Shown here: positions 15,579-36,002 of the stretch, one piece after another
Numbering within the stretch: the stretch's first letter is position 1
Layout of the letters: every line of letters starts with the position of its first letter
The notes under the pieces: model-generated
What the model saw: the letters and a program-made list of their open reading frames with translations, nothing else
Told to the model about the DNA's origin: nothing
Database searches by the model: none
Position numbers and translations under genes: made by a program
Origin: Acidobacteriota bacterium
GTDB lineage: Bacteria; Acidobacteriota; Terriglobia; Terriglobales; Acidobacteriaceae
Assembly: GCA_031296115.1 (NCBI GenBank)
Contig: JARLGI010000027.1
Location: 1 to 64,000, forward strand
DNA: 64,000 bases
Direction: 5' to 3'

Positions 15579-15653
15579 TGGTAGCGCTACCGGGAATCGA
15601 ACCCGGGTTTGAAGATTGAGAATCTTCCGTCCTAACCCCTAGACGATAGCGCC
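15579..15653 (-). tRNA. tRNA-Glu (anticodon CUC)
   Basis: Read on the minus strand, the cloverleaf is complete. The acceptor arm is GGCGCTA with TAGCGCT (a G-U first pair), with D arm GTCT/GGAC. The anticodon stem GAAGA/TCTTC encloses the loop TTCTCAA, giving anticodon CUC. The T arm is CCGGG-TTCGATT-CCCGG. Discriminator A and CCA are encoded. The anticodon assigns glutamate (GAG codons). Confidence 0.93.
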
Positions 15654-32425: not shown

Positions 32426-32491
32426 TGACACGAAGCTCCGGCTGATGCAAAGAACTTGCGCCTCAGGGCACTAGCGCACACGGCGCCAACC

Positions 32492-33787
32492 ATGCCAGAA
32501 AGCAAAGCAGTCCCCATCCATCCCGCCCGCAACGTGCTGGGCAGCCTGCGAGTGCCGGGCGACAAATCCATCTCTCACCGTTACGCTATGCTGGCGACGT
32601 TGGCGGAAGGGCCGTCGCGGTTGCACAACTTTTCCCTGGGCGCCGACTGCGCCAGCACGCTGGGCTGCGTTCAGGCGCTGGGTGCCAAGGTCGAGCGCGA
32701 CGAGCAGGGTCGCCTGACCATTGAAGGCTTGGGTCCGCGGCTGAAAGCTCCCGCTGTGCCGCTCGATTGCGGCAATTCAGGATCGACCATGCGCATGCTG
32801 GCGGGCATCGTCGCGGGGCAGTCGTTTGCCAGCGAGATGCTTGGCGACGAGTCGCTCTCGCGACGTCCCATGAAGCGCATCATTGAGCCGTTGACGCAGA
32901 TGGGAGCGGAGATTCGCGCCACGCAAGACGGTTGCGCGCCGCTGCACATCACCGGCGGCAAGCTGCACGGCATCGAGTATCGCCCGCTCGTGGCCAGCGC
33001 GCAGGTGAAATCCTGCCTGCTGTTTGCCGGACTGCTGGCCGAGGGCGTCACAACCGTGGAGGAGCCCATGCGCACTCGCGATCATGGCGAGCTGGCGCTG
33101 CGGGCTTTCGGGGTAAAGGTCGAGCGCAAGCAGGCAGGCGTCTCGATACAGGGTGGGCAGCAGCTTCATCCTTTGGAAGTGACCATCCCCGGCGACATTT
33201 CGTCCGCCGCGTTCTTTCTCTGTGCCGCGTCCATCTTTCCGGAATCAAACCTGGTCATCGATGGAGTGTCGCTGAACCCCACGCGCTCGGCGCTGCTCGA
33301 CGTGCTGGCCGCCATGGGTTGCAGGATTTCGATGCTCCGCGTGGAAGAACAGCACGGCGAACTGGTGGGCACGATCTCACTGGTGCCGGGCAAGGGCCCG
33401 CATCTGGTCATCGCGGGAGCGCAGACAGCCGCGCTGGTTGACGAACTTCCCGTGCTGGCGGCGATCGCTCCGTACACCGCCGGCGGCTTGGAAGTTCGCG
33501 ATGCCGGCGAATTACGGGTGAAGGAATCGGACCGGCTGGCTGTCGTCACGCAGAACCTGTTGGCCATGGGCGCCCAGGTTGAGCAAACTGCCGACGGCTG
33601 GCGCATTCCGGGGGTGCAGAAGCTGCATGGAGCGGAAATAAACTCGTTCGGCGACCATCGCATCGCCATGGCGTTCGCCATTGCGGCCTTGCGGGCCGAG
33701 GGCGACACGCTCATTCGCAATCCCGAATGCGTTGCGATTTCGTATCCCAACTTTTTCCAGGACCTGGAACAGGTAGTCGAGCGATAG
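32492..33787 (+). CDS. aroA: 3-phosphoshikimate 1-carboxyvinyltransferase (EPSP synthase)
   Basis: 431 residues from the ATG at 32492. It transfers the enolpyruvyl group from PEP to shikimate 3-phosphate in aromatic amino-acid synthesis. Signatures: LRVPGDKSISHRYAM near the N-terminus, LDCGNSGSTMRMLAG, LRVKESDRLA, and FGDHRIAMAFAIA at the C-terminus. An in-frame upstream Met at 32456 would add 12 residues that do not resemble the family. No other aro gene is adjacent. It converges on the DedA-rhodanese gene with only 5 bases between the stops if that gene is read through its UGA. Confidence 0.95.
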   Translation: MPESKAVPIHPARNVLGSLRVPGDKSISHRYAMLATLAEGPSRLHNFSLGADCASTLGCVQALGAKVERDEQGRLTIEGLGPRLKAPAVPLDCGNSGSTMRMLAGIVAGQSFASEMLGDESLSRRPMKRIIEPLTQMGAEIRATQDGCAPLHITGGKLHGIEYRPLVASAQVKSCLLFAGLLAEGVTTVEEPMRTRDHGELALRAFGVKVERKQAGVSIQGGQQLHPLEVTIPGDISSAAFFLCAASIFPESNLVIDGVSLNPTRSALLDVLAAMGCRISMLRVEEQHGELVGTISLVPGKGPHLVIAGAQTAALVDELPVLAAIAPYTAGGLEVRDAGELRVKESDRLAVVTQNLLAMGAQVEQTADGWRIPGVQKLHGAEINSFGDHRIAMAFAIAALRAEGDTLIRNPECVAISYPNFFQDLEQVVER

Positions 33788-33792
33788 GCTTC

Positions 33793-34782
33793 TTACGCTG
33801 AGTGTTCGGTGGCCCAGGAAGCGCCCGACTGCGGCTCAGCAGAGACTGAGTCCACATCGGCCATGGGATAGCCCAGCCTCTTCCACTCATAGAAACCGCC
33901 CAACAGCGGACGGACGCGGCGAATACCGTGCTTTCGCAGTTGCAGCGCCACCCGGGCGCTGGTCGCTTCGTTCGGTCAAGTACAGAAGAGGATGAGCTCT
34001 CCATCGCGGGCAATCTCGCTGTTGCGGCTTTCCAGATCCTCCGGCGCAATCTGCAACGCTCCGGGAAGGGTGCGCGGATCGGTCAACACATCCAGCGGGT
34101 GCCGCAGGTCGACGATCACCACAGCCTCGCCCGCTTCCATCTTGTGCTTCAACTCGTCGGGGGTAATGCGGTCGCCCTTCACCTGCTCGATGAAGCGATT
34201 GCGCTCGCGCCAGCGAAAGAGAACGTAAGCAACCACTCCGGCAAGGAAGAGCACCAACATCCACCCGCCGAAACGCTGGGTGTAGAAGGCGGCGCGGTCG
34301 AGCTGCTTGCCGAAAAGGAAGCCCACCCCTGCGAATGCGCCCGTCCACAGGAGCGCGCCTGCGAAGTCGAAGAGCAGGAACTTGGGGAATTCGACTCCCA
34401 CCATGCCGGCTAACGTGGGAGCGGCGGTGTTCAGCCCGGGGACGAACTTGCAGATGAGCAGCGTGCGAGCGCCGTACCTGGTGAACGTCGACTCGGTGCG
34501 GCGTACGCAAGAGTCCGGTTCCAGCGCAATCCGGCACAGCAAATTCAGGACCACGCCGCCGCGCTTCTTTCCGAAGCCGTACCAAAAGGTGTCCGCGAGC
34601 AGGGAAGCGATGGAGGAAGTGAGAATGACAAAGGCCAGATGCATCCGGCCCTGCGAGGCCAGCGCGCCGGCTGCCAGCAGCAGCGGCGACGCCGGAATGG
34701 GCAGTCCGCCCTGCTCCATGAGAACCCATCCGAAGAGCAGCAGGTAGCCGTAGTGCACCACGAATTGGAGAGTCTCAGTCAT
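33793..34782 (-). CDS. DedA-family membrane protein fused to rhodanese domain, with in-frame UGA
   Basis: From the ATG at 34782 the frame encodes a DedA/SNARE-associated transporter-like domain: GGLPIPASPLLLAAGALASQ, GARTLLICKFVPGLNTAAPT, and several helices. A rhodanese domain follows (VVIVDLRHPLDVLTDPRTLP, LILFCT). At 33976-33978 the frame has a UGA where homologues, as I recall them, have Cys (CxCPNEATSAR). It then continues without another stop for 60 residues (PNEATSARVALQLRKHG, VRPLLGGFYEWKRLGYP), ending at a TAA at 33793. That end lies 5 bases from the aroA stop. A hairpin 14 bases after the UGA fits a bacterial SECIS. It is either a selenoprotein (332-residue-class readthrough) or a nonsense mutant; truncation would leave the rhodanese domain incomplete. 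Confidence 0.75.
33943..33961 (-). promoter_or_regulatory. SECIS-like hairpin downstream of in-frame UGA
   Basis: On the minus strand, CAGCGCC pairs perfectly with GGCGCTG around a 5-base loop CGGGU. It begins 14 bases after the UGA at 33978-33976, and the apical loop begins 21 bases after it, with a G at loop position 2. These values fit the published bacterial SECIS rules as I remember them. The region is GC-rich, so chance is possible. Confidence 0.35.
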
Positions 34783-34949: not shown

Positions 34950-36002
34950 ATGACGGTTACGACGATACAAGAAAAATTCGCCGCGGGCGACGCCCACATG
35001 GAGAAATACCGCGGGGCGGAGACGCCGTCCAGGTTCGGCGACGCTGCTCGAGAGTTCCGAGCGTTGCTGGAAGGCAGCGCCATCTTCGACATGAGCTGGC
35101 AGGCCAAGCTCGTGTTGAGCGGGGAAGACCGCGTGCGCTGGCTGAACGGCATGGTGACCAACAATATCCGCGACCTGGCGCCGGCACATGGCGTGTACAG
35201 TTTTCTGTTGAGTGCCCAGGGCCGCATTCAGGGGGACATGGTCGCTTACAATCGCGGCGACTACCTGCTGGTGACGACGGACCGGGAGCAGGCGCCTGCC
35301 ATCGCGGCCACTTTTGACCGATATATCATCATGGACGATGTCGAGGTGGGGGACATCAGCGACAAACTTGCCGCGGTGGGCATCGCCGGCCCAAAAGCTT
35401 CCAAAGTCTTATCCAGTGCAGGGATTGACGTCACAAGTCTTGAACCGGGCCAGCTAATGGACGCCGTGTGGCGTGACGCCGGCATCTCCGTCGCGCGCAG
35501 CGTGCGGCCCCAGATGGATGGGTACGAGATCTGGCTGGCGGTGGAGAACGTGGAGAAGGCCTGGGACGCGCTGGTCCTGACGGGGGCCAAGCCGGCCGGC
35601 AGCGACGCGCTCGAACTCTACCGGATTGTGCGCGGCGTGCCGCGCTTCGGCGTCGATCTGCGAGAGCGCGATCTGCCGCAAGAGACGGAACAGTTGTACG
35701 CGCTAAATTTTGCGAAGGGCTGCTATATCGGGCAGGAGATTGTGGAGCGCATTCGCGCGCTCGGCGGAGTGCATCGCACGTTTACTGGGTTTGAGTTGAA
35801 CGGCGATCCGCCGCAGGCGGGGACCAAGGTCCGCGCCAACGACAAGGACGTGGGAGAAATCACCAGCGCCGCACGAATTCCGTTTCCGCAACACGAGCGC
35901 ACCTTGGCTTTAGGCTACTTGCGGCGCGAGACAGGCCGTCCCGGTGCGGCCGTGCAGATCGGCGAGCAGACCGCAACGGTGCATGCGCTGCCGTTCGCCT
36001 AG
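34950..36002 (+). CDS. ygfZ: Folate-binding protein YgfZ (GcvT-like)
   Basis: 350 residues. YgfZ binds tetrahydrofolate and supports Fe-S cluster repair and enzymes such as MiaB. The N-terminal GcvT-like domain shows FDMSWQAKLVLSGEDRVRW and MVTNNIRDLAPAHG. The diagnostic motif is FAKGCYIGQEIVERIRALG, matching the K-G-C-[FY]-x-G-Q-E signature with its conserved Cys. It begins on the plus strand, 70 bases ahead of the DUF1844 gene, in the probable ygfZ-DUF1844-MBL-ribF run. Family firm. Confidence 0.93.
   Translation: MTVTTIQEKFAAGDAHMEKYRGAETPSRFGDAAREFRALLEGSAIFDMSWQAKLVLSGEDRVRWLNGMVTNNIRDLAPAHGVYSFLLSAQGRIQGDMVAYNRGDYLLVTTDREQAPAIAATFDRYIIMDDVEVGDISDKLAAVGIAGPKASKVLSSAGIDVTSLEPGQLMDAVWRDAGISVARSVRPQMDGYEIWLAVENVEKAWDALVLTGAKPAGSDALELYRIVRGVPRFGVDLRERDLPQETEQLYALNFAKGCYIGQEIVERIRALGGVHRTFTGFELNGDPPQAGTKVRANDKDVGEITSAARIPFPQHERTLALGYLRRETGRPGAAVQIGEQTATVHALPFA

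Follow-up and report, generated by a model that had tools for sequence, protein, structure and literature searches.

Does the single UGA inside a gene that joins a DedA-type membrane domain to a rhodanese encode selenocysteine (Sec), or does it mark a gene in decay? An earlier note on this DNA had raised both possibilities for a locus in the window, the whole 64,000-nucleotide stretch that we analyzed. Reading the sequence confirmed the frame as the note had described it. On the minus strand, the frame from 34782 to 33793 opens with an ATG, runs for 268 codons to a TGA at 33978-33976, and continues for 60 codons to a TAA at 33795-33793. The TGA is the only one in an otherwise open frame, the 60 codons past it are conserved, and the closing TAA lies 5 bases from the stop of aroA (aroA end 33787, opposite strand). 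The features of the gene are as follows, where counts of fusions refer to an alignment of 98 sequences (35 UGA orthologs, 38 Cys orthologs, and 25 from a second DedA-rhodanese family).

33793..34782, minus strand: probable selenoprotein gene for the DedA-rhodanese fusion, from ATG to TAA (329 residues, Sec269 included)
34321..34698, minus strand: VTT/DedA membrane domain, residues 29-154 (Pfam PF09335, 56 bits against a cut-off of 33.9)
33877..34164, minus strand: rhodanese domain, residues 207-302 (Pfam PF00581, 34.5 bits against a cut-off of 22.2)
33982..33984, minus strand: Cys267, the canonical cysteine of rhodaneses, which opens the CTU motif (conserved in all 98 fusions)
33976..33978, minus strand: putative Sec codon UGA, residue 269 (from the reading of the frame and the TGA/Cys codons in relatives)

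The rhodanese domain passes the PF00581 gathering score and has the active-loop cysteine, C267, and the matches listed when the PDB was searched by fold and by sequence fall on the rhodanese part of the protein and are themselves rhodaneses. The motif that the note had given for homologues proved correct, with the Cys forms reading CTCPSEATAAK or CSCPNEATSAR, and the UGA takes the place of the second Cys of CxC while the canonical C267 is retained. The start position, 268 codons 5' of the UGA, is conserved in most orthologs. Readthrough at the UGA would yield a protein of 329 residues, with a membrane domain of the DedA fold at the front and, behind it, a rhodanese whose active loop reads C267-T-U269. 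When selenium is absent, the product would end at residue 268 and consist of the membrane domain and a broken rhodanese.

In this window, the gene is flanked by aroA (32456-33787) and a ygfZ/gcvT-like gene (34950-36002). We saw these neighbors at this locus only among 30 loci with flanks of up to about 1.5 kb and at none of the 29 related loci, which suggests that the gene moves between neighborhoods. A tRNA gene at 15582-15653 on the minus strand is the sole Rfam match in the 64-kb window at the gathering score.

We compared the codon for residue 269 among relatives, using genome samples from the window's own phylum. The codon is UGA in all nine same-genus genomes, this one included, which answers the question about close relatives that the note had asked. 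Orthologs of the DedA-rhodanese gene were present in 47 of 100 relatives (own genome included; all orthologs listed down to E 1.5e-21 were read), with TGA in 25, TGC or TGT in 22, and any other codon in none. A sample of 297 Acidobacteriota genomes gave a match at E 1e-12 or better in 66, and 27 further loci listed from this phylum sample had TGA in 11 and TGC or TGT in 16. Over all 82 distinct loci read, a count that includes weaker matches, some of them picked because of their TGA, 58 had TGA and 24 had TGC or TGT. Two loci (L015 and L044) have TGC/TGT at the Sec position, and the TGA counted for them is the terminal stop; one locus with an unmapped codon (L092) was left out, and L055 is a second copy of L029. 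A separate scan of named loci searched for a peptide pattern that has Cys at this position, and the 80 of 303 loci that it kept are therefore Cys forms by construction and are uninformative on UGA frequency; their titles are nearly all Acidobacteriota, with one labeled Rhodanobacteraceae.

These counts bear directly on the alternative that the gene is decaying and that the UGA is a true stop created by a nonsense mutation. A nonsense mutation would account for a single stop within the frame with about a fifth of the protein past it, but the same codon is shared across the genus and by 25 of the 47 relatives with an ortholog, and it alternates only with Cys, never with TAA, TAG, or another residue. 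The part of the gene 3' of the UGA is also conserved, with synonymous sites frozen directly past the UGA (see below). We therefore consider this alternative, which the note had kept alongside its own proposal, barely credible. A sequencing error or a private mutation is excluded by the nine same-genus genomes. In a tree of 46 orthologs, no fewer than 7 switches between UGA and Cys are required, and well supported branches make 3 of these unavoidable, so that Sec and Cys have been exchanged on more than one occasion. Two marks of bacterial selenoproteins, Sec/Cys pairs among homologues and an in-frame UGA with conserved coding sequence downstream, were found for this gene.

A search of the genome for the Sec machinery, which the note had proposed as a check, recovered the full set. 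The tRNA-Sec scored 67.1 bits and was called tRNA-SeC by ARAGORN, and SelB (383.8 bits), SelA (565.1 bits), and SelD (365.7 bits) were all above their cut-offs. The selD gene (L096, from base 1501) has an in-frame TGA of its own at the active site, KAAG-U-ASK, and is the known Sec form of SelD. In the relatives, tRNA-Sec was counted from long-form RF01852 matches of at least 58.8 bits, since the gathering score of 47 also passes tRNA-Ile; the RF01852 matches of 58-60 bits at L090 and L091 are tRNA-Ile genes by ARAGORN.

Of the 25 genomes with UGA, 22 have tRNA-Sec, SelA, and SelB, and the other 3 have two of the three (in their assemblies, G002 and G037 are without SelB and G015 is without tRNA-Sec), so that by this one-sided rule no UGA genome (0 of 25) is devoid of machinery. 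Among the 22 genomes with Cys, 14 have none of the three components, 7 have all three, and 1 has two. The association between codon and machinery has a Fisher p of 9.4e-7 when descent is ignored, and a tree-aware test was not significant (3 independent pairs, median p of 1); most of the contrast is due to a single large clade of Cys forms in which the machinery was lost. One genome in a 590-contig assembly (G059) has SelA, SelB, and a UGA in a gene of the second DedA-rhodanese family (L063), but it has a Cys codon in the ortholog (L039), and no tRNA-Sec was found.

The machinery also bears on whether the UGA might be decoded as Trp or Cys, through a changed code or leaky readthrough that does not involve selenium. 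Relatives do have Cys at the same place, as decoding to Cys would lead one to expect, but orthologs use UGA as their terminal stop, including one in the same genus (L005), and the genome has the full Sec machinery along with a SelD that has its own in-frame UGA. We judge decoding as another residue to be very improbable. A changed genetic code was rejected, since the orthologs themselves terminate in TGA.

As a SECIS element, we examined the following candidate.

33943..33961, minus strand: proposed SECIS hairpin with a 7-bp stem (5-bp conserved core) and the 5-base loop CGGGU (from folding and conservation)

The hairpin, CAGCGCC-CGGGU-GGCGCUG, begins 14 bases past the UGA, and its 7-bp stem and 5-base loop are as the note had claimed. 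It lies within the published limits for bacterial SECIS elements that PMC13188914 quotes, with a loop of 5, a stem of 5-7, a G in the first two loop positions, a UGA-to-loop distance of 21 bases, and a folding energy of -12.5 kcal/mol. The fold was no stronger than that of shuffled sequence in three windows (z of +0.49, -0.56, and -0.42), and we dropped fold strength as SECIS evidence since the shuffles fold equally well.

Conservation was more telling. In 24 UGA orthologs, codons +6 to +10 showed a mean synonymous entropy of 0.29 bits versus 1.30 bits at other conserved codons, with 0 of 20000 draws as low, and the same freeze was found in the 25 loci of the second DedA-rhodanese family (0.26 versus 1.22 bits; 0 of 20000 draws). 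The 22 Cys orthologs showed no freeze in these codons (1.35 versus 1.29 bits; 12212 of 20000 draws as low). The strong evidence for the putative hairpin is this above-chance conservation at synonymous sites in the UGA bearers, not its fold energy. The consensus fold has four pairs and -5.41 kcal/mol in UGA bearers versus -0.24 kcal/mol in Cys bearers. Two-sided changes occur in 2 of the 7 pairs (the changes seen are G-C to A-U in three related loci and C-G to G-C at the stem base), and the two outermost pairs fail to form in 24 and 33 of the 56 rows. The Cys alignment, where no hairpin is expected, has 5 pairs with two-sided changes, and we dropped covariation as the main evidence because it is weak. 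Our model R1 scores this hairpin site at 77.1 bits, with the next site in the window at 15.3 bits, a high score by construction because the site was in the training set.

A codon that alternates only with Cys, a SECIS-type hairpin behind it, and SelB and tRNA-Sec in the genome together imply that ribosomes should insert Sec at residue 269. From the sequence comparisons, we put the probability that the gene encodes a selenoprotein, with the UGA read as Sec269, at 0.93 or more. The selenocysteine reading of the earlier note has therefore held up: the machinery is present, the UGA is not private to one assembly, and none of the contrary findings that the note had listed was made.

Part of this result falls within known selenoprotein biology. 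Acidobacteria have been known to have selenoproteins since 2006, according to the accessible text of PMC1794560. A rhodanese selenoprotein with the CxU motif is form 3 (NF041203) in the list of PMC13188914, and PMC9312934 gives one as COG0607 form 2. NF041203 (rhodanese_LYCAU, rhodanese-like domain-containing selenoprotein form 3) is the best NCBIfam match of our protein (79.3 bits, E 1.9e-22), at a score that does not reach the curated cut-off of 115 bits. The two have in common a rhodanese with Sec as the second residue of CxU (here CTU), but the model spans 126 positions and covers the rhodanese only, whereas our protein adds a fused DedA membrane domain that has a Cys pair of its own.

TsoB (NF045694, rhodanese/DsbD fusion-like selenoprotein) is also, judged by its name in PMC13188914, a rhodanese selenoprotein joined to a membrane redox partner. 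The main text of that review gives TsoB two Sec residues in a UxxxxU motif, in contrast to the one CxU here, and our protein had no significant match to NF045694 at E 1, while some relatives matched weakly (about 1e-5 to 1e-7). DedA-rhodanese proteins that have no Sec, namely P. aeruginosa PA1209 and the COG0586 fusions, share the order of DedA followed by rhodanese (PMC12893004, PMC10127716); the accessible text of these two papers reports no selenocysteine, and PA1209 is set beside our protein by description. The main text of PMC13188914, a review of 119 families in which we saw no DedA fusion, makes no mention of DedA, VTT, PF09335, undecaprenyl, or antiporter. No DedA selenoprotein appeared among the titles of the literature searched, which covered few subscription papers. 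We regard the finding as partly known: the CxU rhodanese selenoprotein is already listed, and what is probably new is its fusion to DedA and the changes in that membrane domain.

CxU rhodaneses also turned up in other settings. The second, more distant DedA-rhodanese family (L056-L076 and L081-L084) has CTU and the same hairpin, with UGA in 25 of 25 loci fetched, all of which were chosen for TGA. CTU and a hairpin are also found in stand-alone short rhodaneses (L077-L080 and L085-L087). Four stand-alone acidobacterial rhodaneses were tested against NF041203, and three scored 107.7-114 bits and one scored 80.1 bits; the NF041203 cut-off may miss true members among the stand-alone CTU rhodaneses. 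At L094 (249-1274, plus strand), a single frame encodes a Na+/H+ exchanger domain followed by a CAU rhodanese domain, with a matching hairpin; the product may be an antiporter-rhodanese selenoprotein.

What the membrane half might do is suggested by four of its residues.

34534..34536, minus strand: Cys83 in the DedA domain, a candidate partner in redox exchange (conserved in all 98 fusions)
34507..34509, minus strand: Cys92 in the DedA domain, a candidate partner in redox exchange (conserved in 97 of the 98 fusions)
34447..34449, minus strand: Lys112, matching flippase Arg130 (Lys in all 98 fusions)
34429..34431, minus strand: Asn118, matching flippase Arg136 (all 98 fusions have N, S, G, A, or T here, and none has Arg)

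Both cysteines are present together in 97 of 98 fusions. The place of Cys83 is Ala in E. coli YghB and Gly in the genome's stand-alone DedA, and that of Cys92 is Tyr in YghB and Glu in the stand-alone DedA. The predicted structure (mean pLDDT of 85.7, pTM of 0.66, 43 sequences) has Cys83 closing helix 49-85 and Cys92 opening helix 89-113, with moderate confidence (72-74) for residues 81-100. Counting helices and re-entrant loops in the model, we infer that the Cys83/Cys92 turn and the rhodanese domain share one face of the membrane.

Our protein belongs to the same VTT fold family as the DedA flippases YghB and UptA. E. coli YghB requires Glu39, Asp51, Arg130, and Arg136, according to the accessible text of PMC10127716, and of these undecaprenyl-phosphate flippase residues only the Glu is retained here. 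It is possible that the selenoprotein has a working undecaprenyl-phosphate flippase as its DedA half and that the Sec-rhodanese is only a redox-sensing regulator. The placing of DedA-rhodanese fusions in COG0586, a putative flippase group, by PMC10127716, whose accessible text calls the rhodanese link unclear, agrees with a flippase, as does Glu23, which stands at the Glu39 place in 95 of 98 fusions. However, the place of the essential Asp51 is never acidic in 98 of 98 fusions, the two essential Arg are replaced as listed above, and Cys83 and Cys92 have been added. The genome's stand-alone DedA, by contrast, retains both Arg, the Glu, and an acidic residue. We consider a working flippase unlikely. 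A DedA half that has lost the flippase residues points instead to a redox or small-molecule conduit, which on residue conservation we think more likely than a flippase.

Under the conduit reading, C267 would carry a persulfide (or selenenyl-sulfide) as rhodaneses do, taking sulfane sulfur, and Sec269 would resolve the C267-bound sulfur as a selenenyl-sulfide. The Cys83/Cys92 pair of the DedA half would then exchange electrons or sulfane sulfur with the CxU center. Such a membrane seleno-thiol/persulfide relay, C267-Sec269-Cys83/Cys92, is suggested by the conserved residues and the order of the helices, and we give it somewhat less than even odds. Alternatively, the membrane half of the selenoprotein might move a small sulfur or selenium compound that is loaded or unloaded by the rhodanese loop; rhodaneses do deal with sulfane sulfur, and we rate this transport role as low in probability as the flippase. 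The relay, the redox-regulated flippase, and the sulfur/selenium transporter overlap as readings.

A broader picture can be offered tentatively, with less confidence than the relay itself. The protein may be a membrane-bound selenium relay in which a DedA fold has been turned from a lipid flippase into a redox conduit, with its phosphate-binding residues lost and a Cys pair gained, and is driven by the fused Sec-rhodanese; the CxU rhodanese would be a mobile module in Acidobacteriota. The fusion of rhodaneses to DedA proteins has been reported as unexplained (accessible text of PMC10127716), and the combination of an active-loop Sec with a Cys pair that only the fusion has would give a testable redox answer to what links the two. 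The natural Sec/Cys pairs among these proteins offer a ready comparison of what selenium adds. In many Acidobacteriota, gene finders that stop at UGA would report a protein that ends at residue 268 and has only half of the active loop.
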